A stretch of 33,088 bases of DNA from Terriglobales bacterium (GTDB taxonomy: Bacteria; Acidobacteriota; Terriglobia; Terriglobales; Acidobacteriaceae), in the NCBI GenBank assembly GCA_025934735.1, contig JAICWP010000033.1, positions 1 through 33,088 on the forward strand. The letters run 5' to 3'. Below are positions 11,436 to 24,332 of this stretch, piece after piece (within the stretch, counting starts at the first letter, position 1; each line of letters starts with the position of its first letter). The translations under genes and the position numbers were made by a program. A model generated the notes under the pieces. That model had not been told where the DNA came from, did not search any database, and saw only the letters and a list, made by a program, of their open reading frames with translations.

Positions 11436-11876
11436 CTAGGTTGCCCCAGCTTTGGAGAGAGTTTCGTAACGGTCATCGGGGGCGCTCTCGTGGCTGACAG
11501 GCAGGCCACGCGGCGCCCAGCCGGGAAATACCAGGTGTCCGGTAGCATCGCTTTCCCCGCCGAAGCCGCCGCGCATTTCCAGCACCTGAGTGAAGCCGGC
11601 ATTCTGCAGCATCTCCGCCGCCTTCAACGAGCGCCCACCCACCTGGCAACCGACGACCACCTTCACGTCCTTGCCGAAGTTAGCCTCTACAATCTGTACG
11701 AATTGAGGATTCAGGTGCATCCGCCCCATTGCCGGCTCCATCAACGGGATGTTCTTGGCCCCGGGCACATGACCGGCGTCGAACTCCGGCACCGTGCGCA
11801 CATCCAGGTAGATATATTCGGGATCTTTGTCCAGCAGTTGCTTGGTTTCTTCCGGGCTGATGCGCTTGACGGTCAT
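11436..11876 (-). CDS. Rhodanese-like sulfurtransferase domain protein
   Basis: A 146-aa protein of one rhodanese domain. YLDVRTVPEFDAGHVPGAKNIPL (23-45) is the conserved substrate-side strand and loop. The active-site loop is C77-QVGGR-S83, keeping the persulfide-forming cysteine and a loop of the length seen in sulfurtransferases, not phosphatases. The tail after residue 110 is polar and is not family-typical. No signal peptide, so cytoplasmic. It lies 87 bases downstream of the radical SAM gene in the same direction and may share its transcript. Sulfur donor or acceptor unknown. Confidence 0.9.
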   Translation of the reverse strand: MTVKRISPEETKQLLDKDPEYIYLDVRTVPEFDAGHVPGAKNIPLMEPAMGRMHLNPQFVQIVEANFGKDVKVVVGCQVGGRSLKAAEMLQNAGFTQVLEMRGGFGGESDATGHLVFPGWAPRGLPVSHESAPDDRYETLSKAGAT

Positions 11877-11963: not shown

Positions 11964-13091
11964 TTACACCTCGGCGCGGATTCGCTTTGGGGGTCGGGGA
12001 ACAAAGGGAACAGCTGCCAGCTGGCGGTCGAACTGACCCTGCCACCTTCCGGGAATGGCAGTGCCGCATCCTGGACAGGTTCCCTCGGGCCTAAGGTGAT
12101 ACCCGCGAATCAGGTACCCGTAGCGCTCCACCAGCAGCTTGCCGCAGTTGTGGCAGCGGGTGTTTTCCAGTTCGCCCACTTGGCCCGGCAGATTTCCCGC
12201 ATAAATGTAGCGCAAACCTGCCTTTTGACCGATTTCCGCGGCTCGCAGCAGATCTTCGGGGGTGGTGTTGCGCGGGTCCGACATCTTGTAGTCCTGGTGA
12301 AACGCGGTCACGTGCCAGGGAATGTAGGGCGAAATTCCCGCCAAAAATTCGGCTAAACGCGTCAATTCTTCCGCGGAATCGTTGAACCCGGGGATCAGCA
12401 GGGTGACGATTTCCACCCATATGCCCATCTCGTGCAGCCGCCGAATCGTCTCCAGAATGGGCCCAATGCGACCTCCCAGTTCGTGGTAGTGGCGATCGTC
12501 AAAACTCTTCAGGTCCACCTTGTAGAGATCCACCCAGGGCCTAAGATATTCAAGGACTTGCTCTGTTCCATTGCCGTTGGAGACGAAGCCGGTCATCAAC
12601 CCGGCCGCGCGCGCCTCCTGGAAGACCGCTACCGCCCATTCCGACGTGATCAGTGGCTCGTTATAGGTGCTGACCACGGCTTTGGCGCCATAGCGAAGCG
12701 CTTCCTGGACCAGCATTTGCGGGGTGGCACGCAACGGGGCGCTTACCGCCTCCGGATCACGCAAAGCCTGGGAAGTAACCCAGTTCTGGCAGTAGGAGCA
12801 GTGCAGGTCGCAGCCCAGCATGCCGAAACTGTAGGCCAAGGCTCCGGGAGCGACATGAAAAAAGGGCTTCTTTTCTATGGGATCGCACTGCACGCAGCCC
12901 ACATAGCCCCACGGCACGTAGAGCTTGCCGCCGCGGTTGAAACGCACTTTGCACACGCCCCTCTGCCCCTCCGAAATGGGGCAGCAGTGTCCGCAGGAGA
13001 AGCAGCGCACCCGCTCGCGGTCCAGCTTTTCGTAGAGTTCGGGGGCGGCTTCGGCGACGTTCTGGTCCACAATGTCGCGCAGTGCAGGCAT
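11964..13091 (-). CDS. amrS: AmmeMemoRadiSam system radical SAM enzyme
   Basis: A 375-aa radical SAM protein. The [4Fe-4S] cluster ligands are C94, C98 and C101 in GCDLHCSYCQNW. An N-terminal cysteine group (C30, C33, C36, C37, C47) precedes the barrel, and a C-terminal zinc-ribbon-like part has CHNCG and CPGCG, ending PGRW. STYNEPLI and VDLYKVDLKSF match the pyruvate-formate-lyase-activase-like AmrS family. Family members usually travel with Memo and AMMECR1 genes, but neither is in the window. The reaction is not established. It shares direction with the downstream rhodanese gene. Confidence 0.9.
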   Translation of the reverse strand: MPALRDIVDQNVAEAAPELYEKLDRERVRCFSCGHCCPISEGQRGVCKVRFNRGGKLYVPWGYVGCVQCDPIEKKPFFHVAPGALAYSFGMLGCDLHCSYCQNWVTSQALRDPEAVSAPLRATPQMLVQEALRYGAKAVVSTYNEPLITSEWAVAVFQEARAAGLMTGFVSNGNGTEQVLEYLRPWVDLYKVDLKSFDDRHYHELGGRIGPILETIRRLHEMGIWVEIVTLLIPGFNDSAEELTRLAEFLAGISPYIPWHVTAFHQDYKMSDPRNTTPEDLLRAAEIGQKAGLRYIYAGNLPGQVGELENTRCHNCGKLLVERYGYLIRGYHLRPEGTCPGCGTAIPGRWQGQFDRQLAAVPFVPRPPKRIRAEV

Positions 13092-14762: not shown

Positions 14763-14912
14763 TTACTGGAGTAACTCTGACGGGAGTAGAAGAACAAAAA
14801 ACTACCTTAGTTCTACTTAGTCCTGACCCGGTCGAACTCCCACTTGTGCCGAGGATTAAGGCTGCAAGCTCCTGGTTAAATTTCCACAGCCCGTTCACTT
14901 GCACTTCGCAAG
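14763..14912. promoter_or_regulatory. Cluster of dyad sequences, candidate operators
   Basis: The AT-richer divergent gap between the glycoside hydrolase and HxlR genes holds several inverted repeats. These are TTACT-GG-AGTAA at 14763-14774, AGTAGAA (14785-14791) paired with TTCTACT (14811-14817), and CTTGC-acttc-GCAAG at 14898-14912. TACT/AGTA arms resemble sites used by some HxlR/DUF24 repressors. Autoregulation by the adjacent HxlR protein is an inference. Confidence 0.4.
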
Positions 14913-14937
14913 CTATATTTGCTATGGTGTCGCCAAT

Positions 14938-15420
14938 GTGGGTGGCGCGCCAAAGCCAAAACGTCGCTCCGGGTGCCCGGTAAGCATCTCCCTGGAGATT
15001 TTTGGCGACCGTTGGTCGCTGCTGGTCATCCGTGACCTGATGGTTCGCGGCTTTCGTACCTTCAAGGAGTTCGAAAACTCGGGAGAAGGCATTGCCACCA
15101 ACATTCTGGCCAACCGTCTGCGCCGGCTGGAAAGTGCGGGAATTATCACGCAAGAAGCGGAGGAGGAGGACAAGCGCCGCGTGAATTACCGGCTGACGGA
15201 AAAAGGCATTGATCTGGCGCCGGTGCTTCTGGACCTGCTTATTTGGGGTTCGCGGCACGAAGAGGCGGACGCACCCTGCGCCATTATCGAGAACATGGCG
15301 GCGAATCGCGAGCAGATCCTGGCCGAAGTTCGGCGGCGATGGGAGCAGCACGATTCGACTCCGCTTCTGCCGTGGCTTTCCGGTAGCGCTGACCGGCCGC
15401 AAATAACAAGAAAAAAGTGA
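14938..15420 (+). CDS. HxlR-family winged-helix regulator
   Basis: A DNA-binding repressor or activator of the DUF24/HxlR family. GCPVSISLEIFGDRWSLLVIRDLM opens the winged helix, followed by RTFKEFENSGEGIATNILANRLRRLESAGIIT (recognition helix) and VNYRLTEKGIDLAPVL (wing and dimer helix). The N-terminal cysteine in SGCPV is the conserved position that serves as a redox switch in some members. No ATG is in frame. The frame begins at a TTG at 14899 that falls inside a dyad, so I favour the GTG at 14938, which gives 160 aa and starts 12 residues before the domain. The tail past 120 is longer than usual. A DoxX gene follows 48 bases later. Confidence 0.85.
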   Translation: MGGAPKPKRRSGCPVSISLEIFGDRWSLLVIRDLMVRGFRTFKEFENSGEGIATNILANRLRRLESAGIITQEAEEEDKRRVNYRLTEKGIDLAPVLLDLLIWGSRHEEADAPCAIIENMAANREQILAEVRRRWEQHDSTPLLPWLSGSADRPQITRKK

Positions 15421-15468
15421 TCACAACACAGAATGATGAGTCTGCCATTGGCTGAGGAGCGTGAGGTC

Positions 15469-15867
15469 ATGCAATCGGGTGTTCAGACCGCAGTGGCGCC
15501 CAGGAAAACCGTTTGGGCCGGCTACGTTGTTAGCGCCATACCAGTGCTGATGTTGCTGTTCAGCGGCAGCGTTAAATTGCTGAGGCTGCCTTCGGTGGTG
15601 CAGGGATTCGGAGAATACGGTTATCCGGCCAGCCTGATTGCGGTCATCGGAATTCTCGAGGTCGGCTGTACCGTCGTCTATTTGATCCCGCGCACCGCGG
15701 TTCTGGGCGCCATACTAATGACTGGTTTTCTAGGCGGCGCCATCGTTTCCAACGTCCGACTTAACAATCCACTCTTCTCCGTTCCCCTAATTCTGGGCGT
15801 AATGGCCTGGGGAGGGCTTTACCTGCGCGAGCCGCGGCTGCGCGCGCTGATTCCTTTGCGAAAATAA
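15469..15867 (+). CDS. DoxX family membrane protein
   Basis: A 132-aa inner-membrane protein with four hydrophobic segments (WAGYVVSAIPVLMLLFSGSVKLL, ASLIAVIGILEVGCTVVYLIP, AVLGAILMTGFLGGAIVSNV, FSVPLILGVMAWGGLYL). This is the DoxX/DoxD-like layout, and FSGSVKLL is the usual first-helix signature. Start chosen at 15469 because GAGG lies 4 bases before it; the ATGs at 15433 and 15436 have no Shine-Dalgarno. Pairing with an HxlR regulator is common for this family and suggests a redox- or electrophile-responsive role. The biochemical function is unknown. Confidence 0.82.
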   Translation: MQSGVQTAVAPRKTVWAGYVVSAIPVLMLLFSGSVKLLRLPSVVQGFGEYGYPASLIAVIGILEVGCTVVYLIPRTAVLGAILMTGFLGGAIVSNVRLNNPLFSVPLILGVMAWGGLYLREPRLRALIPLRK

Positions 15868-15949: not shown

Positions 15950-17125
15950 ATGAGCAAGGTACGAGTGTTGGTGGGCACACGCAAGGGCGCATTCATATTG
16001 ACGGCGGACGGCAAGCGCGACAAATGGGAGGTGAGCGGGCCGCATTTTGCAGGCTGGGAGATGTACCACTTGAAGGGCTCCCCGGCCGACCCTAATCGCA
16101 TCTACGCATCGCAGACCAGCGGCTGGTTTGGGCAAGTTATCCAGCGCTCCAGCGATGGCGGCAAAACTTGGGAAGCCCCGGGCGGCGACATCACGCCAGT
16201 GCCAGGCGCCATGCCAAAAGTGGAAAGCAATAAGTTCGTGTACGACACTTCTCCCGAAGGCAAGCCGCTCACCACCCACCAGTGGTACGACGGAACCCAG
16301 CATCCCTGGGAGTTCAAGCGGGTGTGGCACCTGGAGCCGTCGCATACCGATCCCGACACCGTTTATGCGGGGGTGGAGGACGCCGCTCTTTTCCGCTCGA
16401 CCGATGGAGCTAAGAGCTGGCAGGAGCTTCCCGGGTTACGCGGCCACGGCACCGGTCCCAAGTGGCAGCCGGGCGCCGGGGGAATGTGCCTGCACACCGT
16501 CATTCTGGACAAGAAGGACCCGAAGCGCATCTATATTGCGATTTCAGCGGCGGGCGCTTTCCGCACCGACAACGGCGGCAAGACCTGGAAGCCCATCAAC
16601 CGCGGCCTCCATTCGCAATATATTCCCGACCAGACCGCCGAGGTCGGCCACTGCGTTCACCACGTGGCCATGCACCCTTCCCGGCCCAACGTGCTGTTCA
16701 TGCAAAAGCACTGGGACGTAATGCGCAGCGATGATGCCGGCGACAACTGGAGCGAAGTAAGCGGCAACCTGCCCACCGATTTCGGGTTCGTCATTGATGT
16801 CCACGCCCACGAACCGGAGACCATCTACGTGGTTCCCATCAAGAGCGATTCGGAGCATTACCCGCCCGAGGGCAAGCTGCGCGTTTACCGCAGCCGCACC
16901 GGCGGCAACGAATGGGAGGCACTGACCAAGGGTCTGCCGCAAAGCAACTGCTATGTAAACGTGCTGCGCGATGCCATGGCCGTGGACTCGCTCGACAAGT
17001 GCGGCATCTATTTCGGCACCACCGGCGGGCAGGTGTACGCGTCACCGGATGCGGGCGACAGCTGGACGCCCATTGTGCGCGATCTGCCGGCCGTTCTGTC
17101 GGTAGAGGTGCAGACACTGCCATGA
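15950..17125 (+). CDS. BNR/Asp-box beta-propeller protein
   Basis: A 391-aa protein with at least six Asp-box repeats of the S-x-D-x-G-x-T-W type at about residues 67-74 (SSDGGKTW), 150-157, 206-213 (TDNGGKTW), 260-267, 315-322 and 365-372, evenly spaced for a sialidase/sortilin-like propeller. Sialidase active-site arginines are not evident, so an enzymatic call is not justified. There is no signal peptide, so it appears cytoplasmic, which is unusual for Asp-box proteins. AAGGAG 8 bases upstream sets the ATG. Its stop overlaps the start of the MoaD-like gene by ATGA, so the two are translationally coupled and probably act together. Confidence 0.88.
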
Positions 17126-17418
17126 TCCGGGTTGTGCTTCCGCAGCATCTGCGCACTCTGGCCAAGGTGGGTTACGAGGTGGAGCTCTCGGTCACGAGCC
17201 CGGTGACGCAGCGCTCCATTTTGGACGCGCTGGAGGCCTACTATCCCATGCTGGCCGGCACCATTCGCGACCATGTGACCCAGCAGCGCCGCCCGTTCTT
17301 GCGCTTTTTTGCCTGCGAGGAGGACTGGTCACTGGAGCCACCGGACGCGCCCCTCCCGGAAGCGGTGGCCTCCGGCAAGGAGCCCTTCTACATTATCGGA
17401 GCCATTGCCGGCGGATAA
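17122..17418 (+). CDS. MoaD/ThiS-like ubiquitin-fold protein ending in Gly-Gly
   Basis: A 98-aa beta-grasp protein. The start is the ATG at 17122, overlapping the previous stop by 4 bases; the frame is open further left only as a shadow of the propeller gene. [33 protein letters not shown] and the C-terminal IIGAIAGG match the MoaD/ThiS pattern. The exposed terminal Gly-Gly is the site that E1-like enzymes adenylate and thiocarboxylate. It is slightly longer than MoaD (about 80), with an insert around 60-85. No MoaE, ThiG, ThiF or MoeB gene is nearby, so a cofactor role is not supported by context. It could be a sulfur carrier or protein modifier for something linked to the propeller protein. 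Confidence 0.82.
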
Positions 17419-17488: not shown

Positions 17489-17890
17489 ATGCAACTCAAT
17501 TCTTACCTGCACTTCAACGGGCGATGCGAAGAGGCCTTTAAGCTTTACGAGAAGGTTCTCGGCGGCAAGATCGAGGCGATGATTCCGCACGAGGGCACGC
17601 CGGCTGCCGAGCAGGTGCCCGCGGGATGGCGCAAGAAGATCATGCATGCCCGGCTAACGGTAGACAATCAAGTGCTGATGGCTTCGGACGTGCCTCCCGG
17701 ACATTACAGTCCGCCGCAAGGTTTTCGGGTCAACATCAGCATCCAGAATCCGGCCGACGCCGAGCGCATATTTAAGGCGCTAGCAGATAAGGGAAAGATC
17801 GCCATGCCACTGGAAAAAACTTTCTGGGCGCAGCGTTTCGGCATGGTCACCGATCAATTCGGCATACCCTGGATGATCAACTGCGAGTAG
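17489..17890 (+). CDS. VOC superfamily protein, PhnB-like
   Basis: A 133-aa protein of the glyoxalase/bleomycin-resistance (VOC) fold. MQLNSYLHFNGRCEEAFKLYEKVLGGKIEAMIPHEG is the PhnB-type opening. The two beta-alpha-beta-beta-beta halves follow, with VNISIQNPADAERIFKALADKGKIAMPL and the closing FGMVTDQFGIPWMINCE. AAGGAG 5 bases before the ATG at 17489 fixes the start. Metal ligands typical of true glyoxalases are incomplete, as in other PhnB-like proteins, whose function is not established. It sits 70 bases after the MoaD-like gene and 10 bases before the secreted GxW protein, so the four may form one transcript. Confidence 0.88.
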   Translation: MQLNSYLHFNGRCEEAFKLYEKVLGGKIEAMIPHEGTPAAEQVPAGWRKKIMHARLTVDNQVLMASDVPPGHYSPPQGFRVNISIQNPADAERIFKALADKGKIAMPLEKTFWAQRFGMVTDQFGIPWMINCE

Positions 17891-18452: not shown

Positions 18453-19610
18453 CTAGATTGCGGCCAGCGCCTGGTCCAGATCGGCCAGGATGTCCTCCGC
18501 GTCCTCGATGCCGACCGAGATGCGCACCATGCCGTCGGTAATGCCGATGGCCTTTCTTCCCTTCTCTCCCAAGGCGGCATGGGTCATGGTGGCGGGATGG
18601 GAGATGAGGGTCTCCACTCCGCCCAGCGATTCGCCCAGGGAGCAAACCCGCACCTTGCGCAGCATCCTTTTGGCGTTGCCAAGGGAGCCGGTTTCGAAGG
18701 TGATCATGGAGCCGAAGCCCGACATCTGCCGCCGGGCCAGTTCGTGCTGCGGATGTTCCGGGAGCCCGGGGTAGAAGACGGCTTTCACCTTTTTGTGCTC
18801 GGCCAGATACTCCGCCACCGCGCGACCGTTGCGGTCGTGCTGCTCCATGCGCACCGCCAGGGTCTTCACGCCTCGCAGGACCAGCCACGATTCAAAGGGC
18901 GACATAATCGCTCCGGCGGACTTCTGAATGAATGACAGCTGCTCGGCCTGCTCCTTGCGCGTGCAGACCACCACGCCGCCCAGGCCGTCGCTGTGGCCGT
19001 TCAGAAATTTGGTAGTGGAGTGCACTACCATGTCGGCGCCCAGGGCGATCGGCTGCTGGAAGTACGGCGACATGAAGGTGTTGTCCACCACCAACTGCGG
19101 CCCGCGCTTGCGGCAGATGCGGCTGATGGCCGCGATGTCGGTAAGGCTCATTAGCGGGTTGGTGGGCGTTTCCACGTACACCAGCCTGGTATTTCGGCCG
19201 ATCGCCTTATCCACGGCGCGCGGCTCTGAAGTGTCCACGTAGGTGAACTCCAGGCCGTAGTTCGCCAGAATCTGGTTAAACAGGCGGGGAACACCGCCGT
19301 ACAGGTTGTGGCCACAGACCACGTGATCGCCGGCCTTGAGCATGGTGGTAATGGCATTGATGGCAGCCATCCCACTGGCAAACACGCGCGCCGCCATGCC
19401 GCCTTCCAGCGACGCCAGGTTTTGTTCCAGGCGGTCGCGGGTGGGATTGGTGACACGGGCATACTCGTAGCCCATGCGGGGCTTGCCCAGCTCGTCCTGC
19501 ACATAGGTGGAGGTGGCGTAAATAGGGACACTGACCGCGCCGGTCAGCGGCTCTGGCTCCTGGCCGTCATGAATGGATCGCGTCGCAAAACCTGCTTTGT
19601 GGTTGGACAT
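18453..19610 (-). CDS. Cystathionine gamma-synthase/gamma-lyase family PLP enzyme
   Basis: A 385-aa cytoplasmic Cys/Met metabolism enzyme. K201 in HSTTKFLNGHSD forms the PLP aldimine, D176 in VVDNTF contacts the pyridine nitrogen, and YEYARVTNPTRDRLE is the phosphate-binding tyrosine/arginine segment supplied across the dimer. CSLGESLGGVETLISHP is the usual C-terminal substrate-binding loop. Length is typical. Sequence alone does not separate cystathionine gamma-synthase (metB), gamma-lyase (mccB) and related lyases. The cysteine synthase-like gene directly upstream (82-base gap) favours reverse transsulfuration, that is cystathionine to cysteine. That is an inference. Confidence 0.92.
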   Translation of the reverse strand: MSNHKAGFATRSIHDGQEPEPLTGAVSVPIYATSTYVQDELGKPRMGYEYARVTNPTRDRLEQNLASLEGGMAARVFASGMAAINAITTMLKAGDHVVCGHNLYGGVPRLFNQILANYGLEFTYVDTSEPRAVDKAIGRNTRLVYVETPTNPLMSLTDIAAISRICRKRGPQLVVDNTFMSPYFQQPIALGADMVVHSTTKFLNGHSDGLGGVVVCTRKEQAEQLSFIQKSAGAIMSPFESWLVLRGVKTLAVRMEQHDRNGRAVAEYLAEHKKVKAVFYPGLPEHPQHELARRQMSGFGSMITFETGSLGNAKRMLRKVRVCSLGESLGGVETLISHPATMTHAALGEKGRKAIGITDGMVRISVGIEDAEDILADLDQALAAI

Positions 19611-19692
19611 TTATCTCTTTCCGAATACCTGCGTGGAACTACAAAACTACACCAAGGTCATCCTGAGCAGGCCCGACCGCTTTCCTGTAGCT

Positions 19693-20643
19693 CTATAGTT
19701 CCTGCTCAAAAATCTTCTTGGACAGATAGCGCTCGGCGGAATCTGGAATGATGGTGGCCACGCGTTTGCCCGCGCCCAGCCGGCTTGCCACTTCCACCGC
19801 CGCATGAACGGCGGCGCCGCCACTGGAGCCGGAGAGCACGCCCTCCTCGCGGGCCAGACGGCGCACCATGGCGAACGCTTGCGGATCGCGCACCATGATG
19901 ACCTCATCGGCCAGGGCACCGTCGAAGGTCTTCGGGAGGAAACTTGCGCCAATGCCTTCCACCTTGTGCGACTCGCCCGCGACTCCGCCGCCCAGCACCG
20001 AGCCTTGGCTCTCCACCGCGCAGGCGCGCAGATCAGGAAGGCGCTCCTTGAGAAAACGCGCCACGCCGGTAAAGGTGCCGCCGGTCCCGGCGCCGAGCAC
20101 CACGGCATCCAGTCGGCCTTCCATCTGTTCGAAGATTTCCCGGGCGGTGGTCTGGTAATGGTAGTCGGGATTGGCCTGGTTCTCGAATTGCCCTGCGAGA
20201 AAGGAATTGGGCGTGCGAGCGGCCAGTTCGCGGGCGCGGCGGATGGCGCCTTCCATACCTTCGGCGTCCGGAGTGCGCGTGACCTCGGCGCCGAGGGCGC
20301 GCATGAGCATGACTTTTTCCTCGGAGAAATGCTCGGGCACGAACAGCGCCACGCGATAGCCGCGGCTCACGCCGATGAGCGCCAAGCCAACGCCGGTGTT
20401 CCCGGCCGTAGCCTCAATCACGGTGGCGCCGCGCTGCAGCAGGCCCTGCTCTTCCGCCCGGCGGATGATGCCGATGGCGGCGCGATCTTTCACGCTGCCG
20501 CCGGGGTTCAGGTATTCCAGCTTGGCGTAAACTTCGGCCGCACCCCGGGGCACAACCCGGCGCAAGCGAAGCATGGGCGTTTCGCCGACCAAGTTAGCAA
20601 TGTCGTCGGAGACACGCAGGCGGGTGGTTTCAGCAGTTTTCAT
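19693..20643 (-). CDS. Cysteine synthase/cystathionine beta-synthase family PLP enzyme
   Basis: A 316-aa fold-type II PLP enzyme that would condense serine or O-acetylserine with sulfide or homocysteine. The PLP lysine is K52 in NPGGSVKDRAA, EATAGNTGVGLA (77-88) binds the substrate carboxylate, and GAGTGGTFTG and SGSSGGAA bind the cofactor phosphate and ring nitrogen. EATAGNTG replaces the EPTSGNTG of classical CysK, a variation seen in the CBS-like branch. There is no C-terminal CBS pair. Start: I use the ATG at 20643; a GTG at 20688 is in frame but neither start has a clear Shine-Dalgarno. Operon with the cystathionine enzyme gene downstream. Confidence 0.9.
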   Translation of the reverse strand: MKTAETTRLRVSDDIANLVGETPMLRLRRVVPRGAAEVYAKLEYLNPGGSVKDRAAIGIIRRAEEQGLLQRGATVIEATAGNTGVGLALIGVSRGYRVALFVPEHFSEEKVMLMRALGAEVTRTPDAEGMEGAIRRARELAARTPNSFLAGQFENQANPDYHYQTTAREIFEQMEGRLDAVVLGAGTGGTFTGVARFLKERLPDLRACAVESQGSVLGGGVAGESHKVEGIGASFLPKTFDGALADEVIMVRDPQAFAMVRRLAREEGVLSGSSGGAAVHAAVEVASRLGAGKRVATIIPDSAERYLSKKIFEQEL

Positions 20644-20744
20644 GGGGCACGTTACAGGGTATGAGAGCGGCGAAGTGGCGTCAATCACCAGCTGAGGAGC
20701 GCACCTTCAACTGTGATGCCGGTCACCAAAGACGGAGAGCTTCC

Positions 20745-23024: not shown

Positions 23025-24332
23025 ATGGCAAAAATCTTCCCTTTTCGGGCCTTACGCTACGACCCGGCCCGCGTGGCCTTGTCCCAGGTGGTCACCCAAC
23101 CTTATGACAAGATCACGTCGGCCATGCAAACAGCCTACTACGACGCCAGCCCTTATAATCTGGTGCGCATCATCCTGGGGAAACGCGACCCCGCTGACAG
23201 CAACGGCAACAATGTCTATACTCGCGCGGCTCGCGACTTCGCGGACTGGCGGCGGCAGGGCATCCTGCGGCAGGACTCAGCGCCGTCGCTCTACGCCTAC
23301 TCCCAGGAGTTCACTCCGCCCGGAACCGGCGACGGCCGTCGCTACGAACGCCGCAGCGTGGTTGCCCTGGGCGGCCTTGAGGACTACTCCGCGGGTGTTG
23401 TATTTCGCCACGAACAGACGCTCTCCAAGCCCAAGGCCGACCGCCTCGACCTGCTGCGCGCCACCCGCGCTCACTTTGGACAGATCTTTATGCTTTATAA
23501 CGATCCCCAACGGCAGCTGGAGGTTACGCTTTCCCCTGCCCGTGAGCCTGAAATCTGCGTTACCGATGAATATGGCGTCACCCACAAAGTATGGGCGCTC
23601 TCCGACCCAGCGACTGCGGCCCAGATTTGCCGCACGATGGCGGACCAGAAGCTGATCATCGCCGACGGGCACCACCGCTACGAAACCGCGCTCAACTACC
23701 GTAATGAACGGCGCGCCGCCACCGGAAAAGCTGATCCTGAAGCTCCCTACGAGCGGGTCATGATGACCTTGGTGAACGCGCACTCGCCGGGCTTGCTGAT
23801 CCTGCCCACGCATCGCGTGGTCTTCGGCCTGGCCGAATTTGAGCCCGGCGCCATGGTCGCGGCCTCGCGCTATTTTTATGGCGTTCGCGATGTGAGCCGC
23901 GAGTTCGATCCCGCCCAACCGATGGCCCTTCTTCCGCGGACCTCACCGGGCGAAACCGCCATGCTGGCGGTAACGGCGCGCCAGGCTTTCCTTTTTGTCG
24001 CCAATCCCGGAACCAAACACTCTGCCCTGGACACTGTTTCCCCGCGCCAAGCCGAACTGGATGTTGTCCGGCTGCACAACGTGGTTCTGGGGAGCGTGCT
24101 GAACATCAGCGAGGAAGCGGTTCGCGAGCAGCGCAACGTGGAATATGTTCGAGATGCCCGGGAAGCGGTGCAACGCGTGCGCTCCGGCGGCGCCAATGTC
24201 GTATTCCTGCTCAATGCGGTTCCCATTGAGCAGATGACCGCCATCGCCCTGGCCGGCGAAGTGATGCCGCAGAAATCCACCGATTTTTACCCCAAAATGC
24301 TGAGTGGCCTGACAATTTATGCGCTGGACTGA
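23025..24332 (+). CDS. DUF1015 family protein
   Basis: A 435-aa cytoplasmic protein of the DUF1015 family. Conserved segments in order are FPFRALRYDP at 5-14, VVTQPYDKI at 22-30, NLVRIILGK near 45, RHEQTLSKPKADRL near 128-141, the strongly conserved IADGHHRYETALNYRN near 206-221, and QMTAIALAGEVMPQKSTDFYPKMLSGL at the C-terminus. The family is related in fold to ParB/SerK-type serine kinases, and some members are thought to phosphorylate free serine. I cannot tell whether this one does. A TACAAT -10-like box lies about 22 bases before the ATG. The amidase gene follows after 2 bases. Confidence 0.88.
   Translation: MAKIFPFRALRYDPARVALSQVVTQPYDKITSAMQTAYYDASPYNLVRIILGKRDPADSNGNNVYTRAARDFADWRRQGILRQDSAPSLYAYSQEFTPPGTGDGRRYERRSVVALGGLEDYSAGVVFRHEQTLSKPKADRLDLLRATRAHFGQIFMLYNDPQRQLEVTLSPAREPEICVTDEYGVTHKVWALSDPATAAQICRTMADQKLIIADGHHRYETALNYRNERRAATGKADPEAPYERVMMTLVNAHSPGLLILPTHRVVFGLAEFEPGAMVAASRYFYGVRDVSREFDPAQPMALLPRTSPGETAMLAVTARQAFLFVANPGTKHSALDTVSPRQAELDVVRLHNVVLGSVLNISEEAVREQRNVEYVRDAREAVQRVRSGGANVVFLLNAVPIEQMTAIALAGEVMPQKSTDFYPKMLSGLTIYALD

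Follow-up and report, generated by a model that had tools for sequence, protein, structure and literature searches.

The window analyzed here, a 33,088-nt stretch of a Terriglobales genome, carries a run of five genes on the same strand, encoding in order an HxlR-type regulator, a DoxX-like membrane protein, an Asp-box propeller, a small ubiquitin-like protein (UBL) and a VOC-fold protein (Table 1). At the center of this run (contig C27 of the genome), the stop codon of the propeller gene (TGA) overlaps the start codon of the UBL gene within the tetranucleotide ATGA, and the UBL ends in ...IIGAIAGG. A preliminary description of this DNA had pointed out both the stop/start overlap and the exact Gly-Gly end of the small protein. 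Both are real, and the overlap recurs in other genomes of the class.

Table 1. The five genes of the same-strand run, with positions in the window and the evidence behind each assignment
Feature	Position	Strand	Evidence
HxlR-type regulator, first in run	14899..15420	+	PF01638, 1.4e-19; start codon uncertain
DoxX-like membrane protein	15433..15867	+	PF13564, 3.1e-18
Asp-box (BNR) propeller	15950..17125	+	ORF, 391 aa; Pfam, PDB 3b7f, fold match
MoaD/CysO-like ubiquitin-like protein (UBL)	17122..17418	+	ORF, 98 aa; profile-profile match; co-occurrence
VOC/glyoxalase-fold protein, YjdN-like	17489..17890	+	PF00903, 1.2e-13; NCBIfam YjdN below cut-off

The larger protein of the pair matches the Pfam BNR and Sortilin-Vps10 families above their cut-offs. 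Among solved structures it matches PDB 3b7f with an E value of 3.8e-67, solved sialidases matching far more weakly. This structure, a BNR protein of Cupriavidus/Ralstonia eutropha (Reut_B4987) titled as a putative glycosyl hydrolase with BNR repeats, belongs to the same propeller family. By eye, the window protein has five clear Asp boxes and one degenerate one. The modeled propeller of a homologue (L070) superimposes on 3b7f with a Z score of 51.3 and an rmsd of 1.7 over 355 residues, and the matches below 3b7f in that fold search are seven-bladed propellers such as WD40 proteins. From the Asp boxes and this fold match, the window protein is most likely seven-bladed and not six-blade-like as first proposed. 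No signal peptide was seen by eye, and the protein is probably cytoplasmic.

The window UBL taken alone gave no Pfam or NCBIfam family match at E 0.1 and no PDB match. Its assignment comes from profile-profile comparison: a 13-member profile of its family matches the UBLs of actinobacterial pairs at 98.3% (E 1.4e-14), while against the PDB the same family profile finds SAMP1 as its sole match (E 0.89). Seven UBLs from other pairs (L092, L046, L067, L069, L070, L077 and L084) pass the Pfam ThiS model (PF02597). A profile of 19 actinobacterial pair UBLs has as its top PDB match 3dwg_C (E 1.5e-21), which is listed as cfp10A and which we take to be CysO, followed by 4n6e and by MoaD and SAMP1 structures. 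Judged by its profile match to these UBLs and by their ThiS and CysO kin, the window protein is a diverged member of the ThiS/MoaD/CysO superfamily. The earlier MoaD/ThiS-like label is therefore borne out by profile-profile comparison, not by single-sequence Pfam or NCBIfam searches.

We searched 151 genomes of the window's class with each protein, counting UBL matches at E 1.8e-6 or better and propellers of 73% identity or more. At these thresholds, two genomes with only weak UBL matches (G002 and G015) were excluded, as were the weak second UBL matches of G005 and G022; 28 genomes in which every propeller has 51% identity or less were excluded too. The UBL is found in 95/151 genomes, the propeller orthologue in 95/151 and both in 93/151 (Fisher p 6e-36, a value that ignores shared descent), with two discordant genomes on either side; in one of these, G019, a contig end lies no more than 58 nt from the propeller. 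Every one of the 93 pairs sits on a single contig and strand, within 1.8 kb. The computed gap, counted without the stop codon, is 60 nt or less in 80 of the 93, including 38 pairs at -1, the window arrangement, and 23 pairs at 2; it ranges from 152 to 1757 nt in the other 13. The short gap in 80 genomes argues that the pairing is not due to chance. A mirror-tree correlation across 39 pairs (r 0.75; shuffle maximum 0.21) is confounded by species descent, and we rejected it as evidence of contact. At two loci where other genes intervene between propeller and UBL, L065 (3760-3849 and 4374-4427) and L031 (1046-1504), copies of the propeller 3' end were seen between the two; in L031 such a copy ends directly before the UBL, as if preserving the coupling sequence.

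A scan of species genomes returned at least 578 propeller relatives, the best 80 of which were kept. A UBL lies directly downstream on the same strand in 39 of these best 80. According to record titles, the 39 belong to Acidobacteriota, Gemmatimonadota, Ignavibacteriales, Eisenbacteria, Brocadiia, Chloroflexi and Actinomycetota, with one unassigned; those outside the actinobacteria are mostly metagenome bins, and many of the actinobacterial ones are named strains. The preliminary description had named restriction to a few close relatives as the outcome that would speak against a system of its own; the co-occurrence is instead wide and cross-phylum. The 41 relatives without a UBL comprise 35 from Streptomycetaceae (34 Streptomyces and one Yinghuangia, none of the 35 loci having an adjacent UBL), two loci cut by a contig end (L071 and L108) and four others (L074, L120, L143 and L145). 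The 11 Streptomyces genomes and one Yinghuangia genome that were searched have two UBL matches each, none of them seen beside the propeller, and the solo Streptomycetaceae propeller may borrow a UBL in trans.

In a plasmid collection, 24 records matched the propeller and 12 loci were read, seven of which have an adjacent UBL. In five proteobacterial loci (L037, L042, L043 from C. metallidurans, L044 and L046) the UBL gene precedes the propeller gene, and in two actinobacterial loci (L038, Arthrobacter; L039, Nonomuraea) it follows it, as found by profile search. No adjacent UBL was found in the three Rhodobacterales loci, the one Streptomyces locus or the one haloarchaeal locus read in this collection. 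The reversed gene order points to a functional bond between propeller and UBL. No natural fusion of the two in one reading frame was noticed in the loci examined.

The Gly-Gly motif is present in 39/39 cross-phylum UBLs and exactly terminal in 32 of them; L075, L078 and L091 continue past it by 2-3 residues, and L069, L070, L077 and L084 have long extensions. Within the class it is present at all 51 loci read (46 genomes), being terminal in 46 and followed by 1 to about 12 residues in the other five. The motif is kept while identity among pair UBLs falls to 24%. The Nonomuraea UBL (L039, 5084-5395) is the only pair UBL seen without a Gly-Gly end. In thioquinolobactin synthesis, residues past Gly-Gly are removed by a JAMM protease. 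As for the long extensions, three of these UBLs continue in frame past Gly-Gly into further domains: a low-molecular-weight phosphatase-like domain in L084 (7113-7811), an endonuclease III-like domain in L069 (7195-8745), and a methyladenine glycosylase followed by DUF5990 in L077 (7086-8399). L070 has a 72-residue tail. Two separate fusions of a UBL to a DNA glycosylase (L069 and L077) are odd.

The window genome holds a second pair on contig C20 (L067, 4879-7709), where a Ser/Thr kinase (Pfam Pkinase, 9.3e-56) is fused to the propeller and followed by a UBL that runs on in frame past Gly-Gly into a PNPOx-like domain. Long propeller frames (691-764 aa) occur in ten class genomes, and a UBL follows each of the eight kinase-propellers examined, one recognized by Pfam and seven by kinase motifs. 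A kinase pair and a plain pair stand in tandem in G088, G116 and G120. At 18 further paralogue loci read in the class, a UBL is beside the propeller in 10, in both gene orders; four of those 10 are among the eight kinase loci.

We ran AlphaFold2 on two natural gene pairs, L070 and L075, translated through the stop codon. The L070 alignment had 62 rows (13 read-through pairs, 27 propellers and 22 UBLs); that of L075 had 33 rows with 11 read-through pairs and is partly independent, containing no Acidobacteriota. Each chain includes a linker of about 34 residues, modeled at low confidence. The models reached pTM values of 0.90 (L070) and 0.87 (L075), with mean pLDDT of 92.9 and 90.2. By our arithmetic, a freely floating UBL would give a pTM of about 0.75, so the UBL appears to be placed on the propeller; the average error implied for its placement is roughly 3 Å (L070) and 5 Å (L075), assuming 1.2 Å for the propeller and 20 Å for the linker. 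The last three UBL residues have a pLDDT below 50 in both models, leaving the modeled Gly-Gly tail disordered. These two predictions, made on homologues of the window pair, indirectly support a physical complex of propeller and UBL, as the coupled genes had suggested.

Conservation was assessed over 85 propellers. A UBL accompanies 47 of them, namely the window protein, three others from the class, 39 from the cross-phylum set and four from proteobacteria; the 38 without one come from Streptomycetaceae (35) and Rhodobacterales (three). Thirty-eight positions are at least 97% conserved both with and without a UBL, including T10, K12, W126, H182, S199, H237, Q252, H254, R259 and R340. No position conserved in paired propellers only was found among the 85 at the thresholds used. 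In the L070 chain, the equivalents of H182 and H237 are H153 and H208, which fall close to where predicted strands begin. We infer that the conserved positions line one pocket. This putative pocket would be independent of an adjacent UBL gene, since solo propellers keep the conserved positions. The propeller may also work alone, given that it lacks an adjacent UBL at 35/35 Streptomycetaceae and 3/3 Rhodobacterales loci and retains the same invariant positions there.

The genes flanking the pair were scanned at 144 loci, many too short to show neighbors and some from one genome. Homologues of the HxlR gene were found in 15/144 loci (15 class genomes), of the DoxX gene in 8/144, and of the VOC gene in 8/144 loci of seven genomes, including P. 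aeruginosa (L037). The haloarchaeal propeller without a UBL has a helix-turn-helix gene, on the other strand, and a DoxX gene upstream. HxlR, DoxX and VOC genes accompany electrophile or quinone stress, and from these neighbors a role of the pair in redox or electrophile stress is a guess. The rhodanese at 11436, earlier suggested as a possible third partner, drops out: it matched at 2/144 loci, one match being the rhodanese domain of a MoeZ-like protein. Across the 144 loci, neither this gene nor the cystathionine gamma-synthase-like, CysK and radical SAM genes of the window are conserved beside the pair. The CysK-type cysteine synthase and the cystathionine gamma-synthase/lyase-like gene lie near the pair on the minus strand (18453-20688), and the radical SAM gene (11964-13091) encodes a protein of the AmmeMemoRadiSam system, above the NCBIfam cut-off. 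A DUF1015 gene at 23025-24332 has homologues near pairs in L056 and L068. Neighbor genes were also clustered over 101 sequences, which comprised the window, 20 loci of its class and the 80 cross-phylum loci. None of the top 45 clusters was a third gene common across phyla; as a test this is weak, since gene calling was crude and missed the UBL itself as a cluster and possibly other short genes. Besides the propeller, the clusters either had shown members from Streptomyces only or covered 2 to 4 loci.

The preliminary description had noted that no molybdopterin, thiamine or E1-like gene is nearby; indeed, contig C27 has no match to PF00899, MoaE, ThiG or Pfam ThiS. This does not imply that an E1 is lacking, since ThiF-family proteins and a JAB protease are encoded elsewhere in the genome. 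There are two such ThiF-family proteins, a ThiF-rhodanese on contig C5 and a second protein on C41. On C5, the neighbors of the ThiF-rhodanese gene encode a SAMP1-family UBL, which scores above its NCBIfam cut-off, a JAB protease, and a CysM-like protein that matches below the cut-offs. The genome's SAMP1-family protein (L155, 5300-5605), near a JAB protease, carries a cysteine-rich tail past Gly-Gly. Three further UBLs of this genome are associated with enzymes: one is a fusion with MoaE, one neighbors CysM-like, E1 and JAB genes, and one neighbors a gene that we read as threonine-synthase-like. The one MoaE match, on C44, is the protein fused to another MoaD; a short ThiS-family protein is encoded on C38, and ThiG is present.

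An E1 acting in trans would be ordinary, as one mycobacterial MoeZR charges several UBLs, namely MoaD1, MoaD2 and CysO, as stated in PMC3227635. In the class, E1 is found in 150/151 genomes (149 above cut-off), JAB in 148/151 and MoaE in 146/151; with nearly all genomes having them, their co-occurrence with the pair is uninformative. In G119 (L148) a ThiF-rhodanese E1 gene on the strand of the pair follows it at a distance of 186 nt; MoeB/MoeZ models give this E1 its best NCBIfam matches. We assessed adjacency by eye among the matches listed, and G119 alone stood out.

Three known systems invite comparison. The pair resembles the CysO-CysM-MoeZ-Mec system of M. tuberculosis in its Gly-Gly carrier, in the closeness of the 19 actinobacterial pair UBLs to 3dwg_C and in the presence of a ThiF-rhodanese E1 in the genome. 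It differs in that its partner is a propeller and not a PLP enzyme, and in that CysM-like, JAB and E1 genes are found at the separate C5 locus, not beside the pair. Like the MoaD-MoaE molybdopterin synthase, it joins a small beta-grasp protein to a dedicated larger partner; unlike it, it has no MoaE in the operon or nearby, the genome's MoaE being fused to another MoaD. SAMP1 and Urm1, modifiers that become attached to proteins, share the Gly-Gly end, and SAMP1 structures are related to the actinobacterial pair UBLs; for the pair UBLs, such attachment is hypothetical. Table 1 of the 2006 census of prokaryotic ubiquitin-like operons contains no propeller partner, and the words propeller, BNR and sialidase are absent from the available text of that census (PMC1779556). 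A search of open-access literature found no published description of a propeller-UBL pair.

We read this conserved cross-phylum pair, tentatively, as a dedicated two-protein complex in which an E1 would charge the UBL in trans and the UBL's acceptor would be the propeller. Co-inheritance, gene overlap in the class and the predicted docking of homologous products argue for a dedicated complex, and to this extent the preliminary interpretation stands, apart from the rhodanese suggested as a third partner. As for the chemistry, which we infer, an E1 from elsewhere in the genome, most likely the MoeZ-type ThiF-rhodanese protein, would adenylate the Gly-Gly end and probably convert it to a thiocarboxylate. 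The propeller would be the UBL's own acceptor, by analogy with MoaE for MoaD and CysM for CysO, and the sulfur would pass to a small molecule or protein bound in a pocket whose invariant residues are Lys, Trp, His, Gln and Arg. Several points count against this reading: the lack of an adjacent UBL at the Streptomycetaceae and Rhodobacterales loci, the L039 UBL without Gly-Gly, the disordered modeled tail, the UBLs that continue past Gly-Gly, the near-ubiquity of E1, MoaE and JAB, and a window UBL profile without a solved relative.

Some of these same observations would suit a UBL that is a non-catalytic beta-grasp subunit, stabilizing or regulating the propeller, with an inherited and unused Gly-Gly; docking is predicted with a disordered tail, and an E1 was seen beside the pair in one genome only. 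We consider this rather unlikely, as Gly-Gly is kept at every one of the 39 cross-phylum and 51 class loci despite the 24% identity. Somewhat more doubtful is protein conjugation, in which the UBL would be attached to proteins in the manner of SAMP or Urm1 and the propeller would be a target-choosing receptor or ligase-like scaffold. Conjugation would agree with the Gly-Gly end, with the near-universal presence of E1 and JAB genes in the class, with SAMP1 being a solved relative of actinobacterial pair UBLs and with the eight kinase-fused propellers, and short extensions past Gly-Gly would fit a processing step; the neighborhoods across phyla, however, share no common gene family in the weak clustering test.

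A UBL that works in the usual synthesis of molybdopterin, thiamine or cysteine, its operon with the propeller being incidental, would be compatible with MoaE in 146 class genomes and ThiG in the window genome. This is very unlikely, however, given that this genome already has the MoaD-MoaE fusion, the C38 ThiS-family protein and the SAMP1/CysO-like protein on C5, that the UBL is beside the propeller in 93/93 class genomes and that other pairs occur in both gene orders. We give almost no credence to the large protein being an exo-sialidase with an incidental UBL. Its Asp boxes and the homologue records named exo-alpha-sialidase or sialidase family protein speak for that function, but the protein falls short of the GH33 sialidase profiles (18.7 bits for PF13088, whose cut-off is 31.4, and 17.5 bits for PF13859, whose cut-off is 27), solved sialidases match over a stretch of about 30 residues with E values of 0.01 or worse, and a signal peptide is not apparent.

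More speculatively, the pair could belong to a new form of prokaryotic ubiquitin-like signaling, improbable as we consider it, in which the propeller, with a fused Ser/Thr kinase in some cases, would be the dedicated receptor of its own UBL and would direct UBL attachment to proteins under electrophile or redox stress through a shared MoeZ-type E1 and JAB protease.

Altogether, we rate the pair as a carrier of the MoaD/CysO type whose partner is of a new kind. The MoaD-, ThiS- and CysO-type carriers known so far are understood through their dedicated partners. A propeller as the conserved partner of such a carrier, found across several phyla and with the genes in either order, points to a step, whether acceptor chemistry or target recognition, that we did not find among known sulfur-carrier or ubiquitin-like pathways, and the pair puts in question the label exo-alpha-sialidase that these propellers carry in databases.
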